64,000 nt of DNA, taken from the NCBI GenBank assembly GCA_029262065.1, contig JAJDAC010000027.1, forward strand, positions 310,001 through 374,000. The letters run 5' to 3'. The notes below the pieces were generated by a model. The model was not told where the DNA came from and did no database searches. It saw only the letters and a program-made list of their open reading frames with translations. The position numbers and the translations under genes were made by a program. Source of the DNA: Candidatus Krumholzibacteriota bacterium (lineage in GTDB: Bacteria > Krumholzibacteriota > Krumholzibacteriia > JAJRXK01). This document shows, piece after piece, positions 40,836 to 62,891 of the stretch (the stretch's first letter is position 1; each line of letters opens with the position of its first letter).

Positions 40836-42077
40836 CTACGCGAGGTAGCGCTTGCCCTGACGAACCAGTTCGCGAATGCCATCGGTAGGGAGGGCATCGA
40901 GTGAACGAAGCACCACGTGGCGAATGCTCTTGCCCGAGCCTTCAAGAAGGCCGCGCGGATCCGACAGGTGGGCTCCGTGCGTCAGGTAGAAGTTGCAGCG
41001 ATCACCCGCGGGCTGAATCCCGCAGATTTCGGTGGGATCGCGATACAAGGCGATGTTCTTGTGCACGTCTTCAACTGCGTTGGGCAGTTCGTGATGAATG
41101 ATATCGCGCAGTTTGTGCGCAATCGCCTGCACCTCGATGGACTGACCCACAAACAGCGCATCGAACGAGGAAGCGTCACCGAAGGCCGACGACGGTTCGG
41201 CCGGCTCGTCGGCGATGCTTATCGTGTCGATGACCCGCGGCGGCTTGGGAGGCGGCGGGGGAGGCGCGGCCTCGGTAACCACCGGTGGTGCCGGTATGGC
41301 CTTGGGCTTGGGCTCGGCCGCGATAGGCTCGGGCTTCGGCTTCGGCTTCGGCTTCGGGCGTGGCTTCGTTGGTGCCTTCTTCGCCGGGGCCTTGCTGGCC
41401 GACTTCTTCTTGGAAGCCGACTTCTTCTTCGTTACGCGCTTCTTGGCCGTGGCCTTCTTTTTGGTCGTACGCTTTTTGGCGACCGCCTTTTTCTTCGTAG
41501 TGCGCTTCTTCGCAGTACGCTTCTTGGCGCTGGCCTTCTTTTTCGTAGTCCGCTTCTTCGCGGTGCGCTTCTTGGCAGTAGCCTTTTTCTTGGTAGTCCG
41601 CTTTTTCGCCGTACGCTTCTTGGCCGTGGCCTTCTTCCTGGTAGTCCGTTTCTTCGCGGTGCGCTTCTTGGCCGCGGACTTCTTTTTGGTAGTGCGCTTC
41701 TTTGCGGTGCGCTTCTTCGCGGCGGACTTCTTTTTCGTAGTCCGCTTCTTCGCGGTACGCTTCTTGGCGGCGGACTTCTTCTTGGTAGTCCGCTTCTTCG
41801 CGGTACGCTTCTTGGCGGCGGACTTCTTCTTGGTAGTCCGCTTCTTCGCGGTACGCTTCTTGGCCGCGGACTTCTTCTTGGTAGTCCGCTTCTTCGCGGT
41901 TCGCTTCTTGGCCGCGGACTTTTTCTTGGTTGTCCGCTTCTTCGTCGCGCGCTTCTTCGTCGTGCGCTTCTTGGCGGTAGACCGCTTCTTCGCCGTCGCC
42001 TTTTTCTTGGTGGTTCGCTTCTTCTTGGCGGCGCTCTTTTTGCGACTTGCCCTCTTTTTGGTCGCCTTCTTCGCCAT
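40836..42077 (-). CDS. histone-H1-like Lys/Arg repeat protein fused to a DUF1801 domain
   Basis: 413 residues from ATG 42077, preceded by GGGAG. Residues 1 to about 215 are nearly all Lys, Arg, Ala, Thr and Ser in a 16-residue tandem repeat (KKRTAKKRTTKKKSAA), as in bacterial histone-H1-like (HctA/AlgP-type) tails that bind DNA. A Pro/Lys-rich linker (about 215-295) follows. The last 115 residues match DUF1801 (YdhG-like): IAHKLRDIIHHELPNAVEDVHK, CNFYLTHGAHLSDP, then LLEGSGKSIRHVVLRSLD. It probably binds the nucleoid. The DUF1801 partner function is unknown. Hairpin terminator downstream. Confidence 0.85.
   Translation of the reverse strand: MAKKATKKRASRKKSAAKKKRTTKKKATAKKRSTAKKRTTKKRATKKRTTKKKSAAKKRTAKKRTTKKKSAAKKRTAKKRTTKKKSAAKKRTAKKRTTKKKSAAKKRTAKKRTTKKKSAAKKRTAKKRTTKKKSAAKKRTAKKRTTRKKATAKKRTAKKRTTKKKATAKKRTAKKRTTKKKASAKKRTAKKRTTKKKAVAKKRTTKKKATAKKRVTKKKSASKKKSASKAPAKKAPTKPRPKPKPKPKPEPIAAEPKPKAIPAPPVVTEAAPPPPPPKPPRVIDTISIADEPAEPSSAFGDASSFDALFVGQSIEVQAIAHKLRDIIHHELPNAVEDVHKNIALYRDPTEICGIQPAGDRCNFYLTHGAHLSDPRGLLEGSGKSIRHVVLRSLDALPTDGIRELVRQGKRYLA
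41440..42070. repeat. 48-bp tandem repeat array inside the histone-like gene
   Basis: The Lys-rich tail is encoded by near-identical 48-bp units, for example those starting at 41760 and 41808. Units nearest the middle are almost identical and the flanking ones more diverged, as expected for expansion by slippage or recombination. Copy number probably varies between strains. Boundaries are approximate. Confidence 0.8.
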
Positions 42078-42187
42078 GGATGCTCCCCCTGGTCTTGACC
42101 GGTTAGCTGCGCTCGATTTCGGCGCAAAAGCTACCACGCGAAACGCGCGCAGCAAACCGAAAGATCAGCAAAGCCTCTGGCGTTATT

Positions 42188-53451: not shown

Positions 53452-54834
53452 TCAGATATTCGATGTCACTTCTTGTTGCAGGTCACGAAGCTCACCGCGA
53501 AAGCCGGGATCACTTTCGTTCAGGTTGCCGATCTTCTGCCACGCGTGGTGCACGGTAGTGTGATCGCGATTGCCGAACTTCCGGCCGATCTGAGTCAACG
53601 ACGCCTTGGTGTTTTCGCGACAGAGATACATCGCAACCTGACGTGCGTGCGCGACAGGTTTGGTTCGCAACCTTGATCGCAGCAGGTCCAACGAAACACC
53701 GTAGTAGATCGAAACCAGTTTGACGATCTCAGCCAGCGAAGGCTCTTTGTTGGGGCGACGTCGGCTGATGAACGTGCCCAACACCTCTCGCGCCATGTCC
53801 AGGTGGATCTCGCTGCCGGTCAGGCTGGCAAAGGCCAGCAAGCGGATAAGGGCGCCTTCAAGCTCGCGAATGTTGTTTTTCACGCTTTCCGCGATCAGAA
53901 CCAACACGTCGTCGGGAATGAAGATATCTTCCTTCTCCACCTTCTTCTTCAGGATCGCTATTCGCGTTTCCAGGTTCGCTGGTTGGAGATCGGTGATCAG
54001 CCCCCATTCGAAGCGACTGCGGAGACGTTCTTCCAGCGTGGGAATTTCGCGTGGGGGACGGTCGCTGGTGACGACCATTTGCTTGTTCGCATCGTAGAGC
54101 GCATTGAACGTGTGAAAGAATTCCTGCTGCGTGCTTTCCTTGCCCGCGAGAAACTGCACGTCATCGATCAACAAAACGTCGACGTTGCGATAGCGATCCT
54201 TGAACTCGAAGGTGCGGCTCGTCCGAATGGACTGGATGAGTTCGTTCATGAAGTTCTCGGCCGAAACGTAGTGCACGACCGCGCGCGGATTCTGACGCAA
54301 CACGCGGTTGCCGATTGCCTGCATGAGATGGGTCTTGCCCAGACCCACGCCGCCGTAGAGAAACAAAGGGTTGTAGGCCTGCGCCGGGTTCTCGGCCACC
54401 GCCTGGCAAGCTGCATGGGCCAGGCGATTGTTGTCGCCTACCACGAAGTTGCGAAAGACGTAGCGTGGGTTCAGGCCGGCATCTCGCGGCTGGCGCAGGA
54501 CCGGCTCGTCACGCACCTCGGGCGCGGGCGCGGTGGCCGCGGGCACCGTATCGAAGCTGGACATGGCCGTGGCGTTCTCGGTCCCGACCTGGATATCGAC
54601 ACTGACCGTCTCGCCCAACGTGCTCTGGGCACACCCCGCCAGGGTGTCGAAATGGTGTTCGGTAAGCCAGTCCACGAAGAACTGATTGGGCCCCTCGATC
54701 GCCAGCGTCTGGCCGTCGAACGAAACAAACCTAGTCTGCGCGAACCAGGTCTGGAAAGTCTGTTCGTTGACTTTTTGTCGGACGGTGGTGAGAACTCTAT
54801 CCCAAACCGTCGATGGTTGTTCTTTGGGGCTCAT
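53452..54834 (-). CDS. dnaA: chromosomal replication initiator protein DnaA
   Basis: 460 residues from ATG 54834. Domain I (TVWDRVLTTVRQKVNEQTFQTWF) leads through a short linker to the AAA+ ATPase: Walker A LYGGVGLGKTHLMQAIGN and Walker B VDVLLIDDVQFLAGK. Domain IV has the DnaA-box-binding helix-turn-helix and the signature RDHTTVHHAWQKI. DnaA opens oriC. Its own upstream gap also carries DnaA-box-like sites, suggesting autoregulation and a bipartite origin. Confidence 0.98.
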   Translation of the reverse strand: MSPKEQPSTVWDRVLTTVRQKVNEQTFQTWFAQTRFVSFDGQTLAIEGPNQFFVDWLTEHHFDTLAGCAQSTLGETVSVDIQVGTENATAMSSFDTVPAATAPAPEVRDEPVLRQPRDAGLNPRYVFRNFVVGDNNRLAHAACQAVAENPAQAYNPLFLYGGVGLGKTHLMQAIGNRVLRQNPRAVVHYVSAENFMNELIQSIRTSRTFEFKDRYRNVDVLLIDDVQFLAGKESTQQEFFHTFNALYDANKQMVVTSDRPPREIPTLEERLRSRFEWGLITDLQPANLETRIAILKKKVEKEDIFIPDDVLVLIAESVKNNIRELEGALIRLLAFASLTGSEIHLDMAREVLGTFISRRRPNKEPSLAEIVKLVSIYYGVSLDLLRSRLRTKPVAHARQVAMYLCRENTKASLTQIGRKFGNRDHTTVHHAWQKIGNLNESDPGFRGELRDLQQEVTSNI

Positions 54835-58717: not shown

Positions 58718-59368
58718 TTGACCGGTGATCCGGGGCTACGGGCAGCAATCGAGGGTTGTGGTCGCGTGGCGCCTGACCTGGTGGATCGGTTGGTGTCGTA
58801 CGGTGAGGATCTTCTGCGTTTCAACCGCGGGCAGAACCTGATCAGTCGGCGCCTGTCGACAGCTGCCGTGGCCAAGATCGTGGTGGAGCCGGCGCTGGCC
58901 GCCCTTGCCCTCTCGGGCGAGTTTCCCATTTCCGATGGTGATCACGTCCTGGACCTCGGTTCTGGTGCGGGTTTGCCTGGAATTCCTTTCGCCATGTCGC
59001 GCCCGGATGTTGTCGTCGTCCTGCTTGAGCGACGGGCGAGCCGGTGCCAGTTCCTGAATCGCGAAAAGATGGCCTTGGCGCTCGACAACACGTCGGTTCT
59101 CTGTGGCGATGCCGTCGACCTGGGCTCGATCGAGCCCTGGGTAGGTTCGTTCGCGGCAGTATTCATGAAGGCGCTGGCCCCACGACCAGCCGCGCTATCG
59201 ATGGCCCGGCCGTTCCTGGCGGCCAATGGCCTGGCGGTAATCTTCTCTTCGGCCGAGTCTGCCGCCACGGACAGCGAAGAATCCCACGACGGTTGGGGCG
59301 GCGTGACCACCGTATCGGTGGAGGGGTCCGACACTGTTCTCGAGGTCTGGCCCGCCCGGTCCGCCTAA
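58718..59368 (+). CDS. rsmG: 16S rRNA (guanine527-N7)-methyltransferase
   Basis: 216 residues from TTG 58718, a rare start; no ATG or GTG fits the N-terminus better. Motifs are FNRGQNLISRR near the N-terminus, DLGSGAGLPGIPFA (SAM-binding motif I), LLERRASRCQFLN, then FMKALAPRPAAL with a Lys in the active-site region. RsmG (GidB) methylates G527 of 16S rRNA. It sits next to parAB, as in many genomes, and is followed by the parS array. Confidence 0.93.
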   Translation: MTGDPGLRAAIEGCGRVAPDLVDRLVSYGEDLLRFNRGQNLISRRLSTAAVAKIVVEPALAALALSGEFPISDGDHVLDLGSGAGLPGIPFAMSRPDVVVVLLERRASRCQFLNREKMALALDNTSVLCGDAVDLGSIEPWVGSFAAVFMKALAPRPAALSMARPFLAANGLAVIFSSAESAATDSEESHDGWGGVTTVSVEGSDTVLEVWPARSA

Positions 59369-59417
59369 GGCGCCCTGTTGGCATTTCAGACTGGAACACA
59401 ACGCCCCCCCAGGCCAA

Positions 59418-59637
59418 CGTTTCACGTGAAACATTGTTCGGAAGGGCGATGTTTCTCGTGGAGCATTGTTCGGCAGGGCCATGTTTCACGTGGAACATTG
59501 TTCCGCGTGGCGATGTTTCACGTGGAACATTGTGCCCCCGCCCGGGGCTCGTCGGTCGATGTTTCACGTGGAACATTGTGCCGCATGTTTCACGTGAAAC
59601 ATGAGAGGTGGGGCAACCCGGTGTTCCACGTGAAACC
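59418..59637. repeat. parS centromere array (seven ParB-binding-site-like 16-mers)
   Basis: Compared with TGTTTCACGTGAAACA, sites lie at 59418-59433 (1 mismatch), 59450-59465 (3), 59482-59497 (1), 59514-59529 (1), 59560-59575 (1), 59586-59601 (exact) and 59622-59637 (2). Spacings of the centres are 32, 32, 32, 46, 26 and 36 bp. The first part is a 32-bp direct repeat including an ATTGTTCxGxxxGGC spacer. It lies directly upstream of parA. ParB would spread from here for chromosome segregation. Frames crossing it are repeat artefacts. Confidence 0.95.
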
Positions 59638-59796: not shown

Positions 59797-60570
59797 ATGG
59801 GAAAGATCATCGCCATCTCCAACCAAAAGGGTGGAGTGGGGAAGACAACAACGGCGGTAAATCTTGCCGCCAGTCTCGCTGTGAGCGAGTACCGAGTCCT
59901 TCTCCTGGACTTCGACCCCCAGGGCAACGCGACCAGCGGGATAGGCCTGGAAAAGGGCGCGGGGGCAACCAGCTACGAACTTCTGCTCGGCCAAACAAAC
60001 CTTGAGCAGACGCGTCGGGAGACCGGCATTCCCTATTTAGACGCGGTTTCGGCCGATCAGCGCCTTTCTGGCGCCGAAATCGAGCTGGTAGATATGGACC
60101 GGCGAGAGTATTTCCTGTCTCGTGCCCTGGCTCCGATTCAAGCCAAGTACGACTTCATCATCATGGACACACCGCCCAGCCTTGGACTCCTGACCATCAA
60201 TGCACTCACGGCTGCCCAGTCGGTCATGATCCCGATCCAATGCGAATACTACGCCCTTGAGGGCCTGACCCAACTTCTCAACACCGTGCACCTGGTACAG
60301 CGGGGAACGAATCCGGGCCTGCGCATCGAGGGAGTTCTTCTGACGATGTACGACCAACGACTTCGGCTGAGCAATCAGGTGGCAACTGAAGCAAAGGACT
60401 ACTTCGGCGAGACGGTGTACGAAACTGTCATCCCGCGGAACGTGACCCTGAGTGAGAGCCCGAGCTTCGGCAAGCCAGTTATCCTTCACGACGTTCAAAG
60501 CAAGGGCGCGCAGAGCTATCTGCAGTTGGCCCGGGAGGTGATCAAGAATGGCGAAGCGTGCGTTGGGTAG
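59797..60570 (+). CDS. parA: chromosome-partitioning ATPase ParA (Soj)
   Basis: 257 residues. Deviant Walker A KGGVGKTTTAVNLAASLA, Walker B FIIMDTPPSLGLLT, and the segment VMIPIQCEYYALEGLTQLL typical of chromosomal ParA/Soj. It binds DNA non-specifically as an ATP dimer and is released by ParB, moving origins apart. A GGAGG ribosome-binding site precedes the ATG. Its 3' end overlaps parB by 23 bp. Confidence 0.97.
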   Translation: MGKIIAISNQKGGVGKTTTAVNLAASLAVSEYRVLLLDFDPQGNATSGIGLEKGAGATSYELLLGQTNLEQTRRETGIPYLDAVSADQRLSGAEIELVDMDRREYFLSRALAPIQAKYDFIIMDTPPSLGLLTINALTAAQSVMIPIQCEYYALEGLTQLLNTVHLVQRGTNPGLRIEGVLLTMYDQRLRLSNQVATEAKDYFGETVYETVIPRNVTLSESPSFGKPVILHDVQSKGAQSYLQLAREVIKNGEACVG

Positions 60571-61492
60571 GGGACTTTCGGCCCTTCTGGGAGATGCCGT
60601 TACTCCACAACCAATGAACCAGATGCCCACCGGCGAGGGCCCGGTCCCCATGGGGCCGCCTATGCTGGGAGACCGCGAAGCGCTTACGCTGCCCCTTGAG
60701 AGCGTTTCAGGCAATCCCGATCAGCCCCGTAAAGCCTTCGATGACAATGCATTGGAAGAGCTTGCGCAAAGCATCCGAGCCAACGGAATTCTCCAGCCCA
60801 TCCTGGTCCGGCGAAAAAGGCCAGGAAGCGGCACCAGCTACGAGGTGATCGCCGGAGAGCGAAGGCTCCGTGCGGCACATCTCGCGGGCCTGGACGTAAT
60901 ACCGGCCCTTGTCTGCAGCATGGAGGAGCAGGAGGCGTTCAAGCTGGCCCTGCTCGAGAACATCCAGCGCGAGGATCTGAACGCGATCGAGGAAGCGGAG
61001 GCCTATCGCCGGCTGATGGATGACCTGGGGGCGACCCACCAGGAAATGGCGGACATGCTCGGCAAGAATCGCAGCACGATTACCAACATTCTGCGCCTTC
61101 TCACGCTGGAAGAACCCATCAGGGAACTGGTCAAAACCGAGCAACTGTCCATGGGCCATGCGCGATGCCTACTAGCTGTTAGTGAGCCCACGGACCGATT
61201 GAGCCTGGCCAAGGAAGTCGTCAGTTCCGGCATTCCAGTGCGCATGCTCGAAAAACGGATCCAGAAATTGCTTGGAGACAATCGTCCCGGAGGATCCGGC
61301 AAATCCCGCCGAAAGACAAACTCCGCGGAGGCCGTGGCCGTAAGGGAATTCGAGACTCGGTTGGAGCACCATCTTGGCAGCCCGGTGTCGATTCAGCGGC
61401 GCGCCAAAAAGGGAAAGATCGAGATTCGTTTCTTCTCTGATGAGGAGCTGGAAAGAGTGCTGGAGCGTTTGGGAATCTCCAGCCAGTTGTAG
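60548..61492 (+). CDS. parB: chromosome-partitioning protein ParB (Spo0J)
   Basis: 314 residues. The N-terminus AKRALGRGLSALLGD is diagnostic. The CTPase/ParB domain has DQPRKAFDDNALEELAQSIRANG, then VIAGERRLRAAHLAGLD (the GERRxRA motif), followed by LALLENIQREDLNAIEEAEAYRRL. The helix-turn-helix TIAD-like segment is MADMLGKNRSTITNILRLL. The C-terminal dimer domain is short and Lys-rich. It acts on the parS array just upstream of parA. Confidence 0.97.
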   Translation: MAKRALGRGLSALLGDAVTPQPMNQMPTGEGPVPMGPPMLGDREALTLPLESVSGNPDQPRKAFDDNALEELAQSIRANGILQPILVRRKRPGSGTSYEVIAGERRLRAAHLAGLDVIPALVCSMEEQEAFKLALLENIQREDLNAIEEAEAYRRLMDDLGATHQEMADMLGKNRSTITNILRLLTLEEPIRELVKTEQLSMGHARCLLAVSEPTDRLSLAKEVVSSGIPVRMLEKRIQKLLGDNRPGGSGKSRRKTNSAEAVAVREFETRLEHHLGSPVSIQRRAKKGKIEIRFFSDEELERVLERLGISSQL

Positions 61493-61605: not shown

Positions 61606-62400
61606 ATGTTGAGCAAGAGCGGCACCTACAGCGTGATTATTGTTCCCGGCGATCACTCGGGAACGCGACAGTACCGAGTGAGCCGACGGCTGATCATCGG
61701 CGCCATCGCGGCGGCGGTAATCACCATCTTGACCTTCATTTTCTTCGTGGCGACCTATGGCAGCGTCCTTTCGAAGTCGCGCCGGGTTTCAGGCCTCGAG
61801 CAGGAGAACCAGGAACTCCGAAGTCAGGTGGTCATGATCAATCAGCTGAACGATGAGCTGGAGAACATCACCGCCCTGAGGGCTCAGCTCGTGGAGATGC
61901 TGGGCGAGACACCACGGCCCGACTTTGACGAGGTGCTGGGCACGGACCACTCGGCCCGGCTGGCCTCCCTGGACGCCGACGCGCTGGACCATCTGCGCGC
62001 CGCGCAGTTGCTACGTGAATATTCGCCAACCGCCTGGCCGATCGACGGCCTGGTTCGGCGAGAGTTTGTACCTGGCGAAGACCGTCACCCCGGGCTGGCC
62101 ATCGATGCTGCAGCCGAATCCGCGGTTCAGGCCGCGGGTCGCGGACGGGTGATCGAGGTCGGTCACAACGAGAAACTGGGCAATTTTGCCGTTCTCGACC
62201 ACGGATTCGGATTTACCACGGTTTACGCCCGCGCGGAACGGATCGTGGTCGAGCCTCATCAGAGGGTGGATCGTGGCCAGATCATCGCCTATCTTGGTAC
62301 TTCCAATCTGGGTAGTGAGGCCCAGCTCTACTTCGAGATCCGGGTGGATGGCGAGCCCGTGAATCCTCGGAGCTACTTGAGAACCGAGAACAGTCGCTGA
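61606..62400 (+). CDS. membrane-anchored LytM/M23-fold protein, catalytic residues degenerate
   Basis: 264 residues. One membrane helix at about 29-51, a coiled coil at about 63-100, then a LytM (M23) domain at about 150-255. His161 and Asp167 of the first metal motif (HPGLAIDAA) are kept. The second motif reads VYARA with Arg209 where the family has His, and the HxH strand reads QLYFE (Gln240, Tyr242). It therefore probably cannot hydrolyse peptidoglycan and, like EnvC or NlpD, may bind or activate another enzyme. It is followed by a bactofilin, a pairing known from shape-determining systems. Confidence 0.85.
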   Translation: MLSKSGTYSVIIVPGDHSGTRQYRVSRRLIIGAIAAAVITILTFIFFVATYGSVLSKSRRVSGLEQENQELRSQVVMINQLNDELENITALRAQLVEMLGETPRPDFDEVLGTDHSARLASLDADALDHLRAAQLLREYSPTAWPIDGLVRREFVPGEDRHPGLAIDAAAESAVQAAGRGRVIEVGHNEKLGNFAVLDHGFGFTTVYARAERIVVEPHQRVDRGQIIAYLGTSNLGSEAQLYFEIRVDGEPVNPRSYLRTENSR

Positions 62401-62435
62401 GCGCCCCACGGCCGGCTCAGCAGGAGGCATACGCG

Positions 62436-62891
62436 ATGTTTGGCAAGGATCAGGAACAGGGCGGCGCGCCGGCAGCCAGCGACACCCGCAGCACATCCAT
62501 TTTGGCCCAGGGCTGCAAGTTCAAGGGCGAGGTCGAGGTGCAGGGGACCTTCCGCATTGAAGGCGAGTTCGAGGGAACCATCAGCAAGCCCAGCTCGCTG
62601 GTGGTTGGTAAGACCGGCGTCGTGAAGGCCAGCGTGAAGGTCAAGAGCGCGATCATCGGCGGCAAGGTCTTCGGCGACATCGAGGCCGAAGACAAGATCG
62701 AGCTGCAGGGTGGAAGCCACGTCGAGGGCGATATCAAAACCCGTCGATTGGTTATTGATGAGGGTGTGTTCTTCGAGGGGAACTGCTCCATGGGCAGCGC
62801 CGAGCAGCGCAAAGCCGCCCACGCAAGCCGCGCGGAGTCCCAGGTGGGCACTCCCAGCAGCAAGCAGCAGAAGACCGCAACGGGCGTGTAG
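62436..62891 (+). CDS. bactofilin (polymer-forming cytoskeletal protein)
   Basis: 151 residues. The short N-terminal tail (FGKDQEQGGAPAASDTRS) leads to a right-handed beta-helix of the DUF583/bactofilin type: ILAQGCKFKGEVEVQGTFRIEG, then EFEGTISKPSSLVVGKTGVVKA, and IIGGKVFGDIEAEDKIEL. A disordered Ala/Ser/Lys tail ends it. Bactofilins form non-polar filaments under the membrane and recruit peptidoglycan enzymes and, in Myxococcus, ParABS components. The LytM-like neighbour 35 nt upstream and the adjacent parAB fit both roles. An intrinsic terminator follows. Confidence 0.95.
   Translation: MFGKDQEQGGAPAASDTRSTSILAQGCKFKGEVEVQGTFRIEGEFEGTISKPSSLVVGKTGVVKASVKVKSAIIGGKVFGDIEAEDKIELQGGSHVEGDIKTRRLVIDEGVFFEGNCSMGSAEQRKAAHASRAESQVGTPSSKQQKTATGV

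Follow-up and report, generated by a model that had tools for sequence, protein, structure and literature searches.

The window, i.e. the whole stretch of 64,000 nt that was analysed, contains an array of parS-like sites at 59418-59637 in the gene order dnaA (reverse), yidC, jag, rsmG, array, parA, parB, M23 peptidase and bactofilin. The dnaA gene is located at 53452..54834 on the minus strand (TIGR00362, 545 bits), and the upstream neighbour of the array is rsmG (gidB; 58718..59368, plus strand, PF02527). Downstream of the array and on the same strand are parA (59797..60570, PF13614), encoding a Walker-type partition ATPase, and parB (60548..61492), the product of which contains the domains ParB_N, HTH_ParB and ParB_C (PF02195, PF17762 and PF23552) and a GERRLRA motif. 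The interval between rsmG and parA comprises 428 bp, and the array ends 159 bp upstream of the parA start. Neither a sigma70-like promoter nor a terminator was found in this interval, though the promoters of this lineage may differ. The distance between the array and dnaA is 4-5 kb. Since the GC skew switches sign near dnaA (at about 52-56 kb in the composition profile), the replication origin is placed there, a few kb from the array. A full-length smc is also encoded in the genome. The M23 peptidase and bactofilin genes downstream of parAB (61606-62891) form an arrangement which recurs in much of the class; in Myxococcus xanthus, the bactofilin gene bacM at the equivalent place is reportedly dispensable for ParABS positioning (PMC5703909).

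The window was scanned with TGTTTCACGTGAAACA, allowing 0-3 mismatches. Seven matches, a count that depends on the assembly across a short tandem repeat, start at 59418, 59450, 59482, 59514, 59560, 59586 and 59622. They are located within 220 bp, with centre-to-centre spacings of 32, 32, 32, 46, 26 and 36 bp. The motif search thus reproduced the seven parS-like sites and the 32-bp run of four described in the initial annotation; the strict phasing also described there is exact for the first four sites but does not extend to the later three spacings. Outside the array, the window contains one weak match (25327, three mismatches), which is at chance level, and dinucleotide-shuffled versions of the window had a mean of 0.15 sites and a maximum of 2. 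The genome-wide search that had been proposed as a check (5.77 Mb, up to two mismatches) revealed eight sites, six of which are inside the array. The two others, C16:2855 with a CCCGTG core and C17:212157, agree with the approximately 1.5 chance sites expected genome-wide according to an estimate from base counts. A candidate for an eighth, decayed site at 59382-59398 (CATTTCAGACTGGAACA) gave p=0.045 upon shuffling, yet 9% of random window pieces equalled it, and it was rejected as chance-like.

All seven sites are read on the plus strand. Sites 3 (59482..59497), 4 (59514..59529) and 5 (59560..59575) have the sequence TGTTTCACGTGGAACA and fully fit the degenerate consensus TGTTYCACGTGRAACA, which is also matched without mismatch by site 6 (59586..59601). 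The latter reads TGTTTCACGTGAAACA and is the perfect palindrome that had been noticed among the irregularly spaced sites. One terminal mismatch to TGTTYCACGTGRAACA is present in site 1 (59418..59433, CGTTTCACGTGAAACA) and in site 7 (59622..59637, TGTTCCACGTGAAACC), and the half-sites of site 7 are ordered opposite to those of sites 2-5. Site 2 (59450..59465, TGTTTCTCGTGGAGCA) has two mismatches, A7>T and A14>G; the first hits the CACGTG core, and this is the only site with a damaged core. Site 2 should be the weakest of the seven, because changes in the core of Pseudomonas parS cost most affinity (PMC4368675). The mismatches of 0 to 3, from which a gradation of site strength had been proposed, are correct as counts against TGTTTCACGTGAAACA, but they are partly an artefact of a consensus allowing TTTCAC only, which overstates the differences beyond site 2. 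A gradation in strength is plausible for site 2 and, on account of their terminal changes, for sites 1 and 7, but not for the others. In the relatives, TTTCAC and TTCCAC half-sites interchange freely, and one family has mostly TGTTCCACGTGGAACA.

The closest PDB structures to the ParB of the window are ParB, Spo0J and Noc. Mapped on Caulobacter ParB, its specificity residues R175 and G203 correspond to R173 and G201; the set R173/N178/G201 specifies parS rather than NBS (PMC7383237; for residue roles see also PMC7333895). The CTP motif GERRxRA is present together with these parS-specific residues, and 47 ParBs of the class show no variation in the GERR motif or in the equivalents of R173/N178/G201. 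An identity as Noc with its NBS was rejected: the NBS TATTTCCCGGGAAATA is not matched, the sites are parS-type, and the Noc residues Q173, K179/K184 and R201 are absent, the ParB having R173, G201, I179 and T184 (Caulobacter numbering). The parS palindrome TGTTYCACGTGRAACA is matched fully by 4/7 sites, with one terminal mismatch by 2/7 and with two mismatches by 1/7. As is typical for chromosomal parS, the sites are origin-proximal and concentrated in the array, and parA and parB follow directly downstream, as in chromosomal ParABS systems. The sites, the neighbouring parAB and the domains and residues of ParB all support the initial view that these are the parS sites of the adjoining parAB.

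Tandem Repeats Finder detected a tandem duplication at 59419..59533 (plus strand), with 3.6 copies of a 32-bp unit consisting of a site and a 16-bp spacer (86% match). The three 16-bp spacers between sites 1-4 show pairwise identities of 88, 75 and 75%, in comparison to 28-29% after shuffling (p<=0.001). These values confirm that the direct repeat takes in the spacer, and because the spacers are 75-88% identical copies, we regard the run as the outcome of tandem duplication. One site with its 16-bp spacer would have been duplicated in tandem, giving rise to the four-site run, and substitutions and indels would have come afterwards. The 32-bp spacing would then be a legacy of the duplication rather than a sign of a conserved helical rule. 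Sites 4 and 5 have identical flanks (ATTGTGC), though the spacings are altered to 46 and 26 bp. Tandem arrays with homologous spacers arise independently elsewhere, for example in Lachnospiraceae (L058, approximately 58.5 bp) and in the phage contig L307 (38 bp). Judged from the sequence, the array is thus very probably the origin-proximal parS cluster of a canonical chromosomal ParABS system, with a 32-bp run that originated by tandem duplication and a spacing that was inherited with it. It is an ordinary, somewhat dense segregation site of low novelty.

For comparison, we used loci from the genomes of 49 relatives of the same phylum. In nearly all of them parS precedes parA, the usual place being the interval from rsmG to parA. 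The number of sites is between 1 and 12; two sites are commonest, and one, three, four, six (G001), eight (G006) and twelve (G004) also occur. The spacings range from 24 to about 150 bp. In the sister genus G001, six parS at L085:3709-3982 are separated by 51, 52, 52, 51 and 52 bp. None of the other genomes of the phylum that were examined showed three intact sites in a 32-bp run, and an integral-turn spacing is not conserved across the relatives. Unphased and single sites are found among the relatives, a result which, according to the initial annotation itself, would reduce the phasing to a product of recent duplication. The proposal that it is unusual for a dense cluster to lie next to parAB is not supported either: pairs and small arrays at this place are common in named loci of Clostridia, Coriobacteriia and Actinobacteria, and the parS cluster of M. 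xanthus, about 4 kb upstream of parA, comprises 22 sites in about 3.05 kb (PMC3899335).

Several relatives deviate from the usual arrangement. Two families of the class have a lipoprotein-like ORF of 407-446 aa (L096:4303-5538, L109:4250-5473, L135:4174-5514) between parS and parA, which are 1.3-1.9 kb apart there. Some parS of L090 and L091 (G006 and G010) seem to lie inside or before the region matched by rsmG, and the centromere may overlap coding sequence there. Two contigs of G002 (L086 and L087) end within its parS array and overlap there by 46 bp, comprising a site and a spacer; in G002, a tandem repeat with a larger number of copies has probably been collapsed.

Based on studies in other bacteria, ParB dimers would bind the 16-bp palindromes, close as CTP-dependent clamps and slide to the flanking DNA. 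A partition complex would form, which would be moved by ParA and would aid SMC loading. Binding to parS, the CTP clamp, sliding, condensation of flanking DNA, movement by ParA and SMC recruitment are all described for ParB (PMC7333895). Seven sites in 220 bp would chiefly multiply the ParB loading points at one place. In magnetic tweezers, the condensation force of ParB grows with parS number and at least 5-7 sites are needed (PMC8299390); therefore, a seven-site array would be expected to act as a strong loading platform.

Three other explanations were weighed against this one. The array could be a helically phased centromere, in which 32 bp (approximately three turns) align ParB dimers on one face of the DNA for cooperative clamp loading or bridging and are kept by selection. 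Three such spacings in succession fit this idea, as do the regularity of the six sites in G001 (51-52 bp, approximately 4.9 turns), the spacers of which are mostly unrelated, and the fact that equal spacing is slightly commoner than expected among non-homologous spacers (p=0.02). However, the spacers in the window are duplicated copies, and its remaining spacings of 46, 26 and 36 bp fall near half turns. Further, an in-phase preference at 10.5 bp is not seen among 64 spacings of the class. When each genus is represented by a single value, the spacings even tend towards half turns (at 10.5 bp, mean phase 184 degrees; p=0.007, post hoc), a tendency due to one family in which they are near 27, 37 and 47. 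The half-turn direction was fixed after this result and then tested in other loci; it was weak for the named loci from other phyla (p=0.07), and a phase preference was absent in 121 independent, de-duplicated spacings of viral contigs (R=0.06, p=0.60). A preference for opposite faces was therefore also rejected as a general rule, being post hoc in the class, weak elsewhere and absent in viral spacings. There is no general rule that sets the sites on the same face or on opposite faces. Since the spacers are duplicated, the spacings of relatives differ and an in-phase preference is lacking, the claim that the 32-bp phasing sets ParB on one face of the DNA is not supported, and we consider a helically phased centromere very unlikely.

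Alternatively, the array could chiefly be an operator, with ParB bound 160 bp upstream of parA repressing or tuning parAB transcription. Its position in the 428-bp interval, shortly before the parA start, is in line with this, while no sigma70-like promoter was found in the interval (with the reservation made above for this lineage). In addition, proximity to the promoter is not conserved, because parS is distant from parA in the two families mentioned, where a gene lies between them. An operator as the main role is thus improbable. To the same extent we doubt a neutral repeat expansion or an assembly artefact, meaning that fewer than seven sites exist or matter. Assembly errors are frequent at short tandem repeats, as illustrated by the broken contigs of G002 with their 46-bp overlap, and in Pseudomonas a single high-affinity parS can suffice for segregation (PMC4368675). 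On the other hand, the copies in the window differ by substitutions and indels, which argues against a simple collapse or expansion; several genera have multi-site arrays; and ParB condensation needed at least 5-7 sites in magnetic tweezers (PMC8299390). Thus, the origin-proximal parS cluster with an inherited spacing is the reading we prefer.

The puzzle of regular spacing concerns other arrays, not the 32-bp run of the window. In all loci examined, there are 31 consecutive spacing pairs equal within 1 bp, 20 of which have homologous spacers. Among loci with non-homologous spacers, equal spacing was found in 7/37, compared to 3.1 expected (p=0.02), and spacing may not be entirely neutral. The strongest case is G001, where spacers 1, 2 and 3 are mutually unrelated and spacer 4 is identical to spacer 1; recent duplication accounts only in part for this regular spacing. 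A CRISPR-like reading of these equal-length spacers was rejected, since parS next to parAB constitute the repeats and two of the spacers are identical. The phage contig L238 has near-equal spacings of 35, 36 and 36 bp, with no detectable spacer homology. Arrays of the G001 type may be old duplicates with selection against indels, or may in part be due to chance. That the spacing of neighbouring parS is under selection in some lineages, regardless of helical phase, is a speculation to which we give little credence. If true, the spacing would be kept and the spacer sequence would be free to vary, via steric or cooperative rules of adjacent ParB clamps.

Chromosomal parS are the subject of the Livny 2007 survey, to the extent that it is reported in PMC3899335. 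Like the ParABS systems of Bacillus, Pseudomonas and Caulobacter, the locus has a 16-bp palindrome with a CACGTG core near dnaA, adjacent parAB, and a ParB with the GERR motif and parS-type residues. In contrast to many model species, where the sites are spread over kilobases, seven sites are found within 220 bp and four of them are tandem-duplicated. The window shares with M. xanthus the many clustered parS upstream of parAB and the bactofilin gene downstream, but its spacings are 26-46 bp and not about 145 bp on average. In the F plasmid, sopC/parSF has twelve 43-bp tandem repeats and ten 16-bp palindromes (PMC6238139). The tandem unit with one 16-bp ParB-binding palindrome is a common feature, with binding being predicted for the window; however, sopC is on a plasmid with SopA/SopB, has a different palindrome and goes with a protein of the SopB family, whereas the array of the window is chromosomal and has four regular units followed by irregular spacing. 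An F-type plasmid centromere was rejected based on the unit of 32 instead of 43 bp, the contig with dnaA and rsmG, and the chromosomal-type ParB.

Even spacing of this kind would reflect growth of parS clusters by tandem duplication of site plus spacer, with no helical rule. Why parS number and clustering vary is an open question according to a review (PMC7333895), and for this question the relatives provide a natural series of arrays that range from 1 to 12 sites in size and from 24 to 150 bp in spacing. The value of the array in the window is that of one member of this comparative series.

Close-spaced pairs or arrays of full chromosomal-type parS were also present in 169/181 stretches of IMG/VR contigs (L143-L323), for example at L307:6138-6404, at L238:7103-7223 and in L149 near 2838-2933. 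In 180/181 of these stretches, which are not always whole contigs, ParA, ParB and RsmG were not detected by tblastn. L307, L238 and L149 are phages, because the first two encode a terminase and the third a phage-type clamp loader and SbcCD. Phage parS arrays may hitch-hike on the host ParB or act as decoys for it, and those without detectable parAB may merit more attention. Last, a lysine-rich histone H1-like protein with 16-residue repeats is encoded at 40836-42155 on the minus strand of the window. The corresponding 48-bp tandem repeat is located at 41467-41993, and by eye the C-terminal part of the protein is DUF1801-like.
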